Source: Stella humosa
GTDB taxonomy: Bacteria; Pseudomonadota; Alphaproteobacteria; ATCC43930; Allostellaceae
Direction of reading: 5' to 3'
Assembly: GCF_006738645.1 (NCBI RefSeq)
Contig: NZ_AP019700.1
Span: 5,266,351 to 5,330,350, forward strand
Length of the DNA stretch: 64,000 nt
Positions 34,754 to 38,867 of this stretch are shown here, in pieces. The notes beneath the pieces are model-generated. The model did no database searches. It was not told the DNA's origin and was given only the letters and a program-made list of their open reading frames with translations. Position 1 is the stretch's first letter. Each line of letters begins with the position of its first letter. Both the position numbers and the translations under genes were made by a program.

Positions 34754-34999
34754 ATGAAGAAGTTCACGACGGCTGGTATCCTGTTTGCCGGTGCCCTCGC
34801 TCTCTCCGCTTGCGGCTATTCGCAGGGTGATCGCGCCCTCAGCGGCGGCGCGCTCGGCGCGGCCGGCGGTGCGGCGATCGGCGGACTGACGGGTGGTAGC
34901 GTCCTGGGCGGCGCCGTCCTCGGCGGCGCGGCCGGTGCCGCGACGGGCGCCCTGACCTCGCCCCGCGACGTCAATCTGGGCCGCCCGGCCTGGCGCTAA
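34754..34999 (+). CDS. small glycine-zipper outer-membrane lipoprotein
   Basis: 81 residues. A type-II signal peptide ends at the lipobox LSAC (Cys20 region of MKKFTTAGILFAGALALSAC). The rest is a glycine zipper (GGALGAAGGAAIGGLTGGSV, GGAVLGGAAGAATGAL), as in 17-kDa surface antigen/SlyB-like or osmotically inducible lipoproteins; it likely sits in the outer membrane, possibly stiffening it under stress. GGAGG six bases before the ATG is an ideal ribosome site. A strong terminator hairpin follows at 35057-35090, so it is probably monocistronic and well expressed. Confidence 0.85.
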   Translation: MKKFTTAGILFAGALALSACGYSQGDRALSGGALGAAGGAAIGGLTGGSVLGGAVLGGAAGAATGALTSPRDVNLGRPAWR

Positions 35000-35056
35000 A
35001 GGCTTCTTCCGGCCGACGCCGATCGCCCACGTGGCAGTCGGCGAAGCTGGGGAAGG

Positions 35057-35090
35057 AAAAATGGCAGCGAGCAATCGCTGCCATTTTTTT
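35057..35090. terminator. intrinsic terminator shared by convergent genes
   Basis: Perfect palindrome: ATGGCAGCGA (35061-35070), loop GCAA, TCGCTGCCAT (35075-35084), flanked by AAAA and a run of T. It ends rightward transcription of the lipoprotein gene and could also stop leftward transcription of the UdgX gene that ends at 35094, since the A-run gives U on the other strand. Confidence 0.85.
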
Positions 35091-35093
35091 CGT

Positions 35094-36509
35094 TCAGGCC
35101 GTGAGTTCGCGCATCGCGGTTTTGAGGTCGGCCGCCAGCAATGCCCGTTCGCGCGCCTGGCCTTCCGGCTCGGGGATACGCAGAGTGTAGGACGGATGGG
35201 CCGTGACCAACACCCGGGTGCCATCGGCCGCCGCCAGCACCTGACCGCGGTGGCGGCCGATGGGCAAGGCCCGGCCGAGCAGGGCATGGATTGCCGTGGC
35301 GCCCAGGGCGACCACCAGCCGGGGGCGGACCGCTGCCAGCTCATGTGCCAGCCACCAACGACAAGCCATGACCTCGCCCGCATCCGGCCGCTGGTGGATC
35401 CGGCGCTTGCCACGCGGCGCGAACTTGAAATGCTTCACCGCATTGGTGAGATAGACCGCCTGGCGGTCGATGCCGGCTGCGGCCAGGGCCTCGTCCAGGA
35501 CTTGGCCGGCCGGGCCGACGAAGGGCCGCCCGGCCAGATCCTCCTGGTCGCCCGGCTGCTCCCCGACCAGCATCAGCGTCGCGTCGGCCGGTCCCGCGCC
35601 GAACACGGTCTGGGTCGCCGGCTGCCACAGCGGGCAACGCCGGCAGCTTGCGGCCTCGTGGCGTAGGGTCGGCAGGCCTGCGGCCGCGATGACCGTCGGT
35701 GGAGCATCTGCAAAGCGCTGAGGCCGGGCGTTCGGCAGGGACGGGGCGTTCCGCACCATGTCGTCTGTGCGGGCGGCTGCCGACGCGATCAACGGGTCGA
35801 TCAGCGCGGCCTCGGGAAGGTTGCGCCAGTAGCGTCGCGGCATCTCGGCCCGCATGGCGCGCACCTTCAGGCGGGCGGGGTTGAAGATGGCGGCGTAGTA
35901 GCGCAGCCACAGCCCCTCGGCCGCGTCCTCATGCAGGTCGGCCGGGCGCGGCAGGCCCGGCGCGAAGAGCAGTTCATCGCCGTTCCACTCGACCGACCGA
36001 TCGGGCGTCAGGATCGACCAGCGCATGGCGGCGAACCGGTCGCGGAAGAACGGGGCGGCGGCGGCCACGACATGATGGTCGGGCTCGAACCAGGCGAGGA
36101 AGCGCTCGCCGTCATCGTCGCGGATCGCGCGGAAGCGCACGAAGGCATGCATCTTGTGGATGTCGCGGCGCACCGCCTTGGCCATGCCTTCCAGGCGGGC
36201 GACCAGGGGATCGGCCGAGATGGCCATCAGCCCCGGCTCGCGCATCGCCCGCCATGCCAGTTGATAGAGCAGGGCGAACCGCTGGCGGTCGCGATGAAGA
36301 ACCGCCTGACCGGCCAGGTCGAAGAATGCCCGCGGCATGGTCGGGGCAGATGCCCCTTCCGGCCGCGCATCCGCCGGAAACAGCGACCGGTCCGGGCCGT
36401 CCTCGGTCCAGGCCACCGCCTCGGGCGGAATGCCGGCGGCCAGCAAGGGCCGCGCAATCGCCCGCCAATCGTCCAGCCCGGCCGCGGCCGGCAGCAGGAC
36501 CGATCGCAT
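35094..36509 (-). CDS. udgX: UdgX-type uracil-DNA glycosylase with N-terminal DUF4130/TIGR03915 domain
   Basis: 471 residues. Residues 1-250 match the TIGR03915-like domain (DRQRFALLYQLAWRAMREP, AKAVRRDIHKMHAFVRFR, DAAEGLWLRYYAAIFNPARL). The C-terminal half is a family-4-like UDG with the iron-sulfur Cys pair SCRRCPLW (Cys289, Cys292; Cys383 also present), GEQPGDQED, GPAGQVLDE and the HPSYTLR motif. The KRRIH signature (368-372), with His372, is the hallmark of UdgX, which excises uracil and stays covalently linked to the abasic site. It overlaps the radical SAM gene upstream by one base (TAATG). Both lie behind a LexA box. Confidence 0.9.
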   Translation of the reverse strand: MRSVLLPAAAGLDDWRAIARPLLAAGIPPEAVAWTEDGPDRSLFPADARPEGASAPTMPRAFFDLAGQAVLHRDRQRFALLYQLAWRAMREPGLMAISADPLVARLEGMAKAVRRDIHKMHAFVRFRAIRDDDGERFLAWFEPDHHVVAAAAPFFRDRFAAMRWSILTPDRSVEWNGDELLFAPGLPRPADLHEDAAEGLWLRYYAAIFNPARLKVRAMRAEMPRRYWRNLPEAALIDPLIASAAARTDDMVRNAPSLPNARPQRFADAPPTVIAAAGLPTLRHEAASCRRCPLWQPATQTVFGAGPADATLMLVGEQPGDQEDLAGRPFVGPAGQVLDEALAAAGIDRQAVYLTNAVKHFKFAPRGKRRIHQRPDAGEVMACRWWLAHELAAVRPRLVVALGATAIHALLGRALPIGRHRGQVLAAADGTRVLVTAHPSYTLRIPEPEGQARERALLAADLKTAMRELTA

Positions 36510-37723
36510 TACAGCGCCAGCGACAATTGCCGCTGCGGCCGAAGGATCCGCTGCTTGAGGTCCTCCAGGTCGAGCAGGCGACGCGCATCCGAGCGCCCCG
36601 GCAGGATGACGAACGGGGCAACCCTGGACAGCGGCACATGCAGGCGCGTCAGGTCCTCCGCCCGGATGGTACGGCCGCGGCGCGACGCCAGGATGCGCCC
36701 CACGGCCTTGCTGCCCAGGCCCGGCACGCGCAGCAGGGCCTCCCGGTCCGCCCGGTTCACGTCGACCGGGAAGCGGTCGCGATGGCGCAGCGCCCAGGCC
36801 AGCTTGGGGTCGATGTCGAGCGCCAGCATGCCATCGGCCGTCTCGGTGATCTCGTCGACGCCGAAGCCATAGAACCGCAACAGCCAGTCCGCCTGGTAGA
36901 GGCGGTGCTCGCGCACCAGGGGCGGGGCGGTGGGCGGCAAAACGCGGCTGGCGTCCGGAATCGGGCTGAAGGCCGAGTAGTAGACGCGCTTCAGGCGGTA
37001 GCCCGCATAGAGCCCGGCGCTGGTCTGCAGGATGGTCTGGTCGCTGGAGGCATCCGCGCCGACGATCATCTGCGTGCTCTGGCCGGCCGGGGCAAAGCGC
37101 GGCGACCGCGGCTCGGCCGCCTTCTCGTCGAGCCGGAGCCGCAGCCGGCCCATGGTGCGGCGGATGGCGCCCATATCCTTCTCGGGCGCCAGCTTGGCCA
37201 GCCCGTCGGCGGTCGGCATCTCCACATTGATGCTGAGGCGGTCGGCGAAGCGCCCCGCCTCCGCCACTAGGCGCTCGTCGGCATCCGGGATGGTCTTCAG
37301 GTGGATATAGCCACGGAAGCCATGGTCGAGGCGGAGCGTGCGCGCCACCTCGACCACCTGCTCCATGGTGTAGTCGGCACTGCGGATGATGCCCGACGAC
37401 AGGAACAGCCCCTCGATGTAGTTGCGGCGATAGAAGTCGAGCGTGAGGCCGACGACCTCCGCGACGGTGAAGCGGGCGCGCGGGACGTTGCTGGACGAGC
37501 GGTTGACGCAATAGAGGCAGTCGAAGGCGCAGGCGTTGGTCAGCAGCACCTTCAGCAGGGAGATGCAGCGGCCGTCCGGGGCATAGGAATGGCAGATGCC
37601 CATGCCGGTGGTGGAACCCAGCCCGCCCGCCCGCGACGTTCGCCGCTCCGTGCCGCTCGACGCACAGGAGGCGTCGTACTTGGCCGCATCTGCCAGGATT
37701 TCGAGCTTGCGCGATATGTCCAT
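36509..37723 (-). CDS. radical SAM protein linked to UDG (TIGR03916-like, putative DNA modification/repair)
   Basis: 404 residues. The SAM-cluster Cys65, Cys69 and Cys72 lie in NACAFDCLYC. A GICHSYAPDGRCISLLKVLL segment and FLSSGIIRSADYTMEQV belong to the family, and a helix-hairpin-helix DNA-binding motif is at LRVPGLGSKAVGRIL (331-345). The reaction is not known; HhH plus linkage to UdgX suggests it acts on DNA, for example on modified or damaged bases or the UdgX-DNA crosslink. It is the first gene of the cassette, with GAAC-N7-GAAC 28 bp before its ATG. Confidence 0.85.
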   Translation of the reverse strand: MDISRKLEILADAAKYDASCASSGTERRTSRAGGLGSTTGMGICHSYAPDGRCISLLKVLLTNACAFDCLYCVNRSSSNVPRARFTVAEVVGLTLDFYRRNYIEGLFLSSGIIRSADYTMEQVVEVARTLRLDHGFRGYIHLKTIPDADERLVAEAGRFADRLSINVEMPTADGLAKLAPEKDMGAIRRTMGRLRLRLDEKAAEPRSPRFAPAGQSTQMIVGADASSDQTILQTSAGLYAGYRLKRVYYSAFSPIPDASRVLPPTAPPLVREHRLYQADWLLRFYGFGVDEITETADGMLALDIDPKLAWALRHRDRFPVDVNRADREALLRVPGLGSKAVGRILASRRGRTIRAEDLTRLHVPLSRVAPFVILPGRSDARRLLDLEDLKQRILRPQRQLSLAL

Positions 37724-37751
37724 CAGGCGTGAACGACGGCTACTTGCGTTT

Positions 37752-37766
37752 GTTCCCTATTTGTTC
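37752..37766. promoter_or_regulatory. LexA (SOS) box of the alphaproteobacterial type
   Basis: GTTC-CCTATTT-GTTC (37752-37766), a perfect GTTC-N7-GTTC, the form bound by LexA in Alphaproteobacteria. It lies 28 bp before the radical SAM start and abuts a TATAAC -10 on the minus strand, so LexA would cover the transcription start. Confidence 0.85.
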
Positions 37767-37796
37767 GTTATACGCGCAGGGCCGGGCGCAGGGCAA
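37767..37796 (-). promoter_or_regulatory. candidate promoter of the radical SAM-udgX cassette
   Basis: Reading leftward, TTGCCC (37796-37791) and TATAAC (37772-37767) are 18 bp apart. The -10 touches the LexA box. Four- and five-of-six matches make this a good but untested candidate. Confidence 0.55.
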
Positions 37797-37813
37797 CCAT
37801 GCCCTGCCGGCCC
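37779..37813 (-). terminator. hairpin after the oligopeptide ABC operon
   Basis: GCAGGGC (37788-37794), loop AACCAT, GCCCTGC (37801-37807), extended by GGGCCG/CGGCCC with a three-base bulge. It lies seven bases past the last ABC gene stop (37820). No U-run follows, so efficiency is uncertain; part of it overlaps the cassette promoter. Confidence 0.5.
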
Positions 37814-37819
37814 CGCCGA

Positions 37820-38867
37820 TCAGGCCGCGCCGACGCGGTCGGCGTAGTGGCAGGCCGCCCAGTGGCCGATCTCGCCGTGGCCGGCAGTGACCGGGTCCAG
37901 CGTCGGCGCCTCGACCGTGCAGCGATCCTGCTTCATCGGGCAGCGGGGATGGAAATGGCAGCCCGACGGCGGGTTCAGCGCGCTGGCGATCTCGCCCTTG
38001 GCCTTGTCGCGGGCGGTCGCCGCATGCTGCCGGAAGGGGTCGGGAATAGCGGCGATGAGCGCGCGCGTGTAGGGGTGGCGCGGGTTCTCGAAGATCTCGC
38101 GCCAGCCGCCACGCTCGACGATGCGGCCCAGATACATGACCGCCACCCGGTCGCTCATGTGCTCGACCACGCCCAGGTCGTGCGAGATCATGATGTAGGA
38201 AAGACCCAGCTCGTCCTTCAATTCCAGCAGGAGGTTGATGATCTGGGCGCGGATCGACACGTCGAGCGCCGATACCGGCTCGTCGCAGATGACCAGCCTG
38301 GGCTTCAGGATGAGGGCGCGTGCGATGCCGATGCGCTGGCGCTGCCCGCCCGAGAATTCATGCGGATAGCGGTCGGCATGCTCCGGCCGCAGGCCGACGC
38401 GGGCCAGCATGTCGGCGACCCGGCTCTCGACCTCGGCCTTGTCGTTGACGCCGTGCAGGCGCAAGGGCGCGGCCAGCGTCCGCCGCACCGTCTGGCGCGG
38501 GTTCAGCGAAGCGTACGGATCCTGGAACACCATCTGGACGGTGCGGGCCATCAGCTTGCGGTCCGGCCGGTCGCGGGCGCCGATGTCCTGGCCGGCGATG
38601 CGGATATGGCCGCGGGTCGGCGGCACGAGGCCCATGATCGCCAGGGCCAGCGTGGACTTGCCGCAGCCGGATTCGCCGACCAGCCCCAGGCATTCGCCGG
38701 GCTTCACGTCGAGGTCGATGCCGTCGACCGCCTTCAGCATGCGCTTGCCGGTGCCCAGCCGGCCGGTGACGGCGTAGTGCACCGCCAGGTCGTCCAGCGC
38801 CAGCAGCGGGGCGGACGACTGGCCGGACGGGGTGGAGTGCTGCGCCTGGATCTGGGACATCGACTGC

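Follow-up and report, generated by a model that had tools for sequence, protein, structure and literature searches.

An operon of Stella humosa preceded by a LexA box combines a radical SAM protein bearing a clamp-type C-terminal peptide with a DUF4130-UdgX fusion

Introduction

A stretch of 64,000 nucleotides from the genome of Stella humosa (NZ_AP019700.1, positions 5,266,351 to 5,330,350), hereafter referred to as the window, harbors at 35094-37766 a real two-gene operon on the minus strand, which encodes a radical S-adenosylmethionine (SAM) protein of the family TIGR03916 (rSAM_link_UDG) and a second protein carrying a uracil-DNA glycosylase (UDG) domain of the UdgX type. NCBIfam labels TIGR03916 as a putative DNA modification/repair protein, and the description of the cassette as one of unknown chemistry, given in an earlier note on this DNA, remains right. 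The same note proposed that the pair acts jointly in a DNA-damage response, which is likely, and guessed that the radical SAM protein processes the crosslink formed between UdgX and DNA.

As read from its sequence, the operon combines a LexA-type box, a radical SAM core, a DUF4130 partner, a UdgX domain with the crosslinking His, and a clamp-type tail. The explanation favored here, to which a probability of about 0.6 is assigned, is that these parts constitute an SOS-induced, clamp-tethered unit of radical SAM protein and DUF4130 that would act on DNA lesions, with UdgX as an accessory.

A clamp-type peptide at the C-terminus of TIGR03916 proteins

The radical SAM protein of the window ends in QLSLAL, a feature that the earlier note had overlooked. 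TIGR03916 proteins in general terminate in a conserved peptide that looks like a beta-clamp-binding motif, which is new here and from which binding to the sliding clamp would be predicted. In an alignment of eight TIGR03916 homologues, an invariant Q and an invariant L lie near the C-terminus after a variable linker. The consensus of beta-clamp clients is given as a C-terminal QL(S/D)LF in PMC9690074.

Three tail patterns of differing strictness were applied, of which the loose one was rerun on the homologues, on two sets of PA0069-family proteins introduced below and on a background of 616 other open reading frames (ORFs) of 200 aa or more. The loose pattern, which requires Q, one of 12 residues, any residue, L/M/F and any residue within the last 22 residues, was present in 93/93 homologues versus 44/616 background ORFs, while the strict pattern, confined to the last 16 residues, was found in 77/93 versus 1/616. 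Position 2 of the tail is L or M in 79 of the 93 homologues and position 5 is F in 59, the commonest tails being QLSLF (16) and QLELF (9). The QLSLAL of the window is matched by the hexapeptide alternative within the strict pattern.

A similar tail was observed in 10/10 further homologues from Verrucomicrobiota (6), Bacillota (3) and Bacteroidota (1), with L197 left uncounted as belonging to the same genome as L138, and some of these tails (QPELF, QLEFLL, QLSIF) are off consensus. The rows dropped from the homologue set were L048, a copy of the window, L054, cut by a contig end, and L068, L103 and L144, which had no ORF fitting the selection pattern; L103 and L144 end in QLSLF and QLQLI and carry GICH and DGRC, and L068, the Gemmatirosa relative, has a C-terminal stretch with QLSLW.

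An xLF-type peptide was also noticed near residue 43 of the DUF4130 protein (window ~36375-36390), in a variable linker, in 86/93 proteins. It was considered as a clamp motif and is left unclaimed, as Q occupies position 1 in only 7/93.

A second radical SAM family with the same kind of tail

The sole strict match in the background was itself a radical SAM protein of the PA0069 family (NF033668, 528.5 bits), which ends in QLSLL. This family scored over its cut-off in 68/142 genomes of the class sample, and tails were read in the best-scoring 30 of these 68 genomes, that of S. humosa included. All 30 fit the loose pattern and 28 the third pattern, the other two ending in QLSLI and QLTLI. GTTC-N7-GTTC, the form of the LexA box of the window, occurs at most 450 bp upstream of the cluster motif in 26/30 of these loci (0.36 expected from shuffles, 0 for a control pattern). 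The clamp-type tail is not a mark of a DUF4130 partner, because 27 of these 30 genomes have no DUF4130 match.

Six further PA0069 proteins, from genomes reached by way of the named loci, were inspected, of which three fit well, with QLSLF in Asticcacaulis (an alphaproteobacterium) and in a proteobacterium of unclear class and QLELF in a member of the Chthoniobacteraceae, and three fit only loosely, with QGQLF in Xanthomonas, QGDFF in Pseudoduganella and QQTLF in a member of the Burkholderiales. CTGT-N8-ACAG lies upstream of the PA0069 genes in Pseudoduganella and the Burkholderiales member. A profile alignment of TIGR03916 with PA0069 covers only 14 columns, which are those of the cluster motif. 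A tentative extension, held at under even odds, is that two LexA-controlled radical SAM families, unalignable beyond this motif, have both acquired clamp-binding tails and may be replication-coupled enzymes that reverse or modify lesions at the fork, TIGR03916 doing so with DUF4130 and possibly with a second iron-sulfur (Fe-S) cluster on C20/C44/C53.

Constant and separable partners

The second gene of the operon had been described as a UDG gene, which holds for its second half; its first half is a DUF4130 domain according to Pfam (134.5 bits against a threshold of 27) and TIGR03915 (201.3 against 112.25 bits), and had been missed. Among 240 genomes of the class, TIGR03916 was found over the cut-off in 12 and DUF4130 in 12, both occurring together in 11; the exceptions are G045, in which the gene is cut by a contig end, and G182, a genus mate with an eroded operon. 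UdgX exceeded its cut-off in 17/240 genomes, in seven of them in frame with DUF4130, in nine without the radical SAM protein and in one (G033) apart from the operon, so that its frequency is 8/12 among radical SAM genomes versus 9/228 among the others. In G162, G175 and G198, the radical SAM protein and DUF4130 are present with no UdgX over the cut-off, and none was found in G045 either, although this genome is fragmentary. Among the control genomes, Caulobacter vibrioides is one that gave matches to all three families, at scores not sorted by cut-off.

Across 80 named loci, the DUF4130 gene lies downstream of the radical SAM gene in 78, in a few of them after an interval of some hundred bases, so the two genes do co-occur in related genomes. 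DUF4130 is fused to UDG in 65 of the loci, as in most of the proteobacterial ones seen, and lacks UDG in the ORF in 13 (L114 being contig-cut); the remaining two, L108 and L118, end ~300 and 700 bases on, at the contig end, before any partner. Stand-alone DUF4130 is found in Acinetobacter (L066), Fusobacterium (L067), Parabacteroides (L065), Spirosoma (L216) and Pusillibacter (L217). Seven genomes from the 12 uncut UDG-less loci were searched for UdgX, their completeness not being stated, and 0/7 gave a match over the cut-off, while three fused controls were positive. A BLAST search of the locus of the Gemmatirosa relative, L068, with the DUF4130-UdgX protein of the window found none in the locus. 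As UdgX is separable in both directions and the radical SAM protein and DUF4130 co-occur in 11/12 genomes, the latter two are regarded as the core and UdgX as an add-on.

The eroded operon of G182, which is of the same genus, is seen in L055 and L193 beside the same ABC transporter genes, where the box GTTCCCTATATGTTC remains; what is missing or disrupted there is the N-terminal portion of the radical SAM gene, along with much of the UDG part.

LexA control

The perfect GTTC-N7-GTTC reported in the earlier note is present upstream of the radical SAM gene (Table 1). Since the window alone would by chance hold roughly one such box (mean 0.80), its reality is argued from enrichment in the genome and from conservation in homologues. 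In the S. humosa genome (5.83 Mb, one contig), there are 94 sites versus 28 for the reversed control pattern, and they include positions 81 bp before lexA, 85 bp before recA, between the divergent uvrA and ssb, and 50 bp before an imuA-like gene; these identities come from NCBIfam, where ImuA reaches 63.8 bits against a cut-off of 150 and UvrA is matched over a partial stretch. Another perfect site was noticed upstream of mraZ (L034, G000:C1:4482000-4487500), which suggests that the division cluster of this organism may be under SOS control.

Boxes were counted within an interval that begins 150 bp upstream of the chosen start and reaches 20 bp into the gene. A perfect box precedes the radical SAM gene in 62/69 alphaproteobacterial homologues with a parsed start, against 0.34 expected from mononucleotide shuffles and 0/69 for the control pattern, where the alpha or non-alpha labels of L070-L149 rest on record titles and general taxonomy, L043-L053, from the class of the window, are taken as Alphaproteobacteria, L150 is left out, and L110 and L129, of unclear class and both with a box, are tallied separately. 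None of 18 other homologues (beta, gamma and one Verrucomicrobiota) carries this box, and 9 of the 18 have a perfect CTGT-N8-ACAG (0.035 expected from shuffles), which we take to be the LexA box of the beta and gamma classes. LexA control thus seems to be kept while its site changes, given that most alphaproteobacterial homologues carry the one site and half of the others the second. The UDG-less alphaproteobacterial operons have the perfect box in 7/10 cases (L045, L046, L050, L091, L098, L105 and L116). On these sequence grounds, LexA control of the operon is well supported, and the earlier description of the operon as SOS-controlled stands.

SOS control of this gene pair is not new here, as it was published before. 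PMC8565304 places a two-gene COG1573-COG4277 operon within the SOS network of Bacteroidetes and cites prior SOS reports of the pair in Verrucomicrobia and Alphaproteobacteria, including Caulobacter.

The TATAAC that the earlier note took as a -10 element does abut the box, but it is rated weak because a scan of 34950-37900 gave no consensus sigma-70 promoter; no match to a consensus promoter or terminator was reported for this range. In Stenotrophomonas (L094) and Xanthomonas (L109), which have neither GTTC-N7-GTTC nor CTGT-N8-ACAG upstream, a palindrome resembling GTCTCAT...TGAGAC lies just upstream of the radical SAM gene.

Parts of the two proteins

The features of the operon, together with the PA0069-family gene of the same genome, are collected in Table 1. 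The two genes overlap by one base, 36509, which is common to the stop and the start (TAATG), and the cluster cysteines and the KRRIH His occupy the residues that the earlier note had assigned to them.

Table 1. Features of the operon (window coordinates unless another contig is named) and the PA0069-family gene of S. humosa
Feature	Position	Strand	Evidence or remark
Radical SAM gene, TIGR03916 (rSAM_link_UDG), 404 aa	36509..37723	-	NCBIfam 563.2 bits, cut-off 343.5
DUF4130-UdgX fusion gene, 471 aa	35094..36509	-	TIGR03915 201.3 bits and TIGR03914 324.7 bits
DUF4130 domain (PF13566)	35811..36284	-	Pfam E 3.8e-39
UdgX domain (TIGR03914)	35118..35804	-	NCBIfam, profile and fold matches to M. smegmatis UdgX
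KRRIH R-loop, crosslinking His372	35394..35408	-	His in 71/71 fused homologues
CxxxCxxC, C65/C69/C72, radical SAM cluster	37508..37531	-	Invariant in homologue alignments
N-terminal C20, C44-H45, C53	37565..37666	-	Conserved; possible auxiliary Fe-S cluster or H-atom donor
Helix-hairpin-helix region, residues ~304-350	36674..36814	-	Sub-gathering Pfam HHH match and ComEA/RuvA profile matches
C-terminal QLSLAL, putative hexapeptide-form beta-clamp-binding motif	36512..36529	-	Tail pattern conserved in homologues
LexA box GTTC-N7-GTTC, GTTCCCTATTTGTTC (gene sense GAACAAATAGGGAAC)	37752..37766		28 bp before radical SAM ATG
TATAAC, candidate -10	37767..37772	-	Abuts LexA box; read from sequence
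TTGCCC, candidate -35	37791-37796		18-bp spacer to TATAAC
PA0069-family radical SAM gene, own genome, one copy	L035:1599-2672 = G000:C1:5108098-5109144	-	LexA box 27 bp upstream

The radical SAM protein belongs to TIGR03916 by score and matches Radical_SAM in Pfam, and its CxxxCxxC is invariant in the alignment of eight homologues and in a further one. Homologous ORFs were picked with a pattern containing AKYD.SC and the CxxxCxxC letters, so that finding C20 and the cluster cysteines invariant in the resulting 94 rows is circular; C44, H45 and C53 lay outside this pattern and are nevertheless found in 94/94 rows. The locus L068 lacks C20, C44, H45 and C53. Judged from sequence, C20, C44 and C53 could hold an auxiliary Fe-S cluster, supply a donor thiol or bind a metal. 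No invariant Cys follows C72 in the 94 rows.

The AlphaFold2 model of the protein (mean predicted local distance difference test score, pLDDT, 86.6; predicted template modelling score 0.84) is of low confidence at residues 21-42 and less so at its last residues, the last four having a mean pLDDT of 60, as expected of a loose end. Its fold neighbors are radical SAM barrels of a general kind. Among the matches listed, lipoyl synthase ties with HydE at Z 18.4; the lipoyl synthase match has a root-mean-square deviation (rmsd) of 3.1 over 221 residues in the model range 4-283. MiaB appears in only one of two lists of 50 fold matches, and spore photoproduct lyase (SPL) is absent from the 50 best in either list, which excludes nothing. 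Membership in the SPL family was considered and rejected, as no NCBIfam SPL model matched the protein and TIGR03886 matched nothing in the S. humosa genome, both at E 0.001. The helix-hairpin-helix (HhH) motif described in the earlier note corresponds to a region that is present, with a Pfam HHH_3 score (20.8 bits) short of the gathering threshold of 27 and weak profile matches to ComEA and RuvA chains (E 0.02-0.07).

A sister radical SAM family in Verrucomicrobiota (L201-L213) reaches ~280-295 bits with TIGR03916, below the cut-off, has a YDLAC N-terminus and is devoid of C44/C53. Within the short loci examined, no DUF4130 gene was recognized by pattern near these sister genes; in L207, a UDG-type ORF adjoins the radical SAM gene.

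The UDG half of the fusion protein is a true UdgX domain, by sequence and by fold. It matches UDG in Pfam, scores 324.7 bits with TIGR03914 against a cut-off of 189.95, shares 52% identity over ~195 residues with M. smegmatis UdgX (profile E 1.4e-75), and superposes on UdgX at Z 29.0 with an rmsd of 1.4 A over 188 residues. Profile matches to UdgX chains (E ~1e-75 to 1e-72) exceed those to family-4 UDG chains (1e-45 to 1e-37), and structural matches to the model of the whole fusion protein were filled by UDG entries. The domain carries the motifs KRRIH, GEQPG and HPSYTLR. All 71/71 fused homologues retain His372 and, two residues earlier, the Arg; only the His count is informative here, as the set was picked by GEQPG. 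No aligned UDG domain had a motif other than GEQPG. PMC10359453 connects excision and crosslinking in UdgX with the KRRIH loop and with two residues of GEQPG, its Glu and Gln. For DUF4130, PMC3765255 suggests an enzyme related to mutagenesis and found in association with SplB-like radical SAM proteins and with UDGs, thymines being the possible target of modification.

Proposed mechanism and competing explanations

In the clamp-tethered unit proposed above, cleavage of LexA would allow the radical SAM protein and DUF4130 to be produced together as a catalytic core. Through its QLxLF/QLxLxL tail, the radical SAM protein would dock on the DnaN sliding clamp, while its HhH region would grip duplex DNA, whereby the radical chemistry would be directed to damaged nucleotides located at stalled forks or behind them. 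Where it is fused, UdgX would catch uracil or apurinic/apyrimidinic (AP) sites at this location, perhaps shielding them by a covalent bond, and presumably would not itself be a substrate of the radical SAM step.

Several observations weigh against this proposal. Sixteen of the 93 tails deviate from the strict consensus (QASLF, QLSLI, QPDLF etc.), the motif of L215 lies ~30 residues before the end, and the QLSLAL of the window is of the hexapeptide form, whose consensus is our assumption. The loose pattern had been fitted to the data themselves, and 7% of background ORFs match it; moreover, the homologues are related and the Fisher values ignore phylogeny. The Verrucomicrobiota sister family is without the motif (12 of 13 tails inspected, L201-L213), and of the clearly non-alphaproteobacterial PA0069 tails, three of four fit only loosely, one being QLELF. 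The HhH evidence is weak, and three of the ten UDG-less alphaproteobacterial operons (L043, L085 and L101) have no perfect box.

The guess of the earlier note, resolution or release of the covalent crosslink between UdgX and an AP site by the radical SAM protein, draws on the common operon with its overlapping genes, on the fusion of UdgX to the partner in 65/80 named loci and on a co-occurrence of UdgX with the radical SAM protein above chance (8/12 vs 9/228). It is nonetheless disfavored, and in our estimate quite improbable, since the constant partner is DUF4130 and UdgX-less operons exist: UdgX over the cut-off is missing from all seven searched genomes with UDG-less operons as well as from G162, G175 and G198, DUF4130 stands alone in the Acinetobacter, Fusobacterium, Parabacteroides, Spirosoma and Pusillibacter loci, and UdgX occurs without the radical SAM protein in 9/240 genomes. 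Direct repair of pyrimidine lesions in the manner of SPL, hinted at by the term "SplB-like" in a figure legend of PMC3765255, would suit a damage-linked radical SAM protein with an HhH region and has that published contextual suggestion in its favor; it is rated as doubtful, given the absence of any SPL model match described above. Moreover, the hydrogen-donor Cys of SPL presumably lies after the equivalent of C72, where the 94 rows offer no invariant Cys.

The C-terminal peptide might instead bind the DUF4130 partner or another protein rather than the sliding clamp, as tail and DUF4130 neighbor do occur together in TIGR03916 proper. This is held to be unlikely: among class genomes with no DUF4130 match, 27 have a tailed PA0069 protein, L068 has QLSLW in a locus where BLAST found no DUF4130-UdgX, and the pattern fits the published clamp consensus. 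Least of all is to be expected of the idea that the three N-terminal cysteines hold an auxiliary cluster of a sulfur-inserting enzyme like LipA or MiaB acting on DNA. All three lie N-terminal to CxxxCxxC, C44 and C53 in 94/94 rows and C20 as well (though selected for), and lipoyl synthase is a top fold neighbor at Z 18.4; HydE, however, ties with LipA, the profile comparison with LipA aligns just 29 columns and lends no support, model residues 21-42 are of low confidence, and the cysteines could be hydrogen donors or a metal site. The focus shifts from the UdgX crosslink to DUF4130 as the constant partner of the radical SAM protein.

Comparison with known systems

The operon belongs to a gene pair already known from the bacterial DNA-damage response. 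It is of the same two-gene kind, under the same LexA control, as the COG1573-COG4277 SOS operon (TIGR03914/03915/03916) of PMC8565304, which names its operon a putative UDG base-excision system, does not come up in a full-text search for DUF4130 and, in the passages considered, mentions neither UDG-less operons nor a C-terminal clamp-type motif. The UDG domain of the window shares GEQPG, KRRIH and the crosslinking His with M. smegmatis UdgX, but the solved chains of the latter are single-domain (~205-229 aa), whereas the UdgX of the window is fused to DUF4130 in a LexA-controlled operon. No paper treating UdgX together with a radical SAM protein was found in the literature searched.

Clients of the beta clamp with QL(S/D)LF peptides include polymerases, Hda, MutS and others. 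They carry a terminal peptide after a variable linker, as is the case here, while the protein of the window is a radical SAM enzyme; among the titles listed from the literature searched, which leaves most subscription papers outside, none describes a radical SAM enzyme that binds the clamp. The tail would give the reaction of TIGR03916 a concrete address, the replication clamp on DNA. With SPL/SplB, TIGR03916 has the radical SAM core, DNA damage and a link to SOS in common, but the families differ by profile and TIGR03916 is without an invariant Cys after C72. The PA0069 family resembles TIGR03916 in having a LexA box and a clamp-type tail, and differs in occurring mostly in genomes without DUF4130; its tails suggest that radical chemistry at the fork may recur in the bacterial SOS response.

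Further observations

The models of PADLOC for anti-phage defence matched neither operon protein at E 0.001 (0 families for both). Two of the loci are on viral contigs, and one of these, L150, has a radical SAM gene with tail and box. An extra gene follows the radical SAM gene in Stakelama (L119:7309-7788), in a metagenome-assembled genome of Pseudomonadota (L129:7268-7759) and on the viral contig (L150:6303-6785); it encodes a hemerythrin HHE protein in L119 and L150 according to Pfam, and the gene of L129 is alike by eye. In the window, a perfect hairpin, ATGGCAGCGA-GCAA-TCGCTGCCAT, with runs of A and T on its flanks, occupies 35056-35090 between an ORF at 34754-34999 and the operon; the terminator scan was silent on it, and it is possibly a bidirectional terminator.

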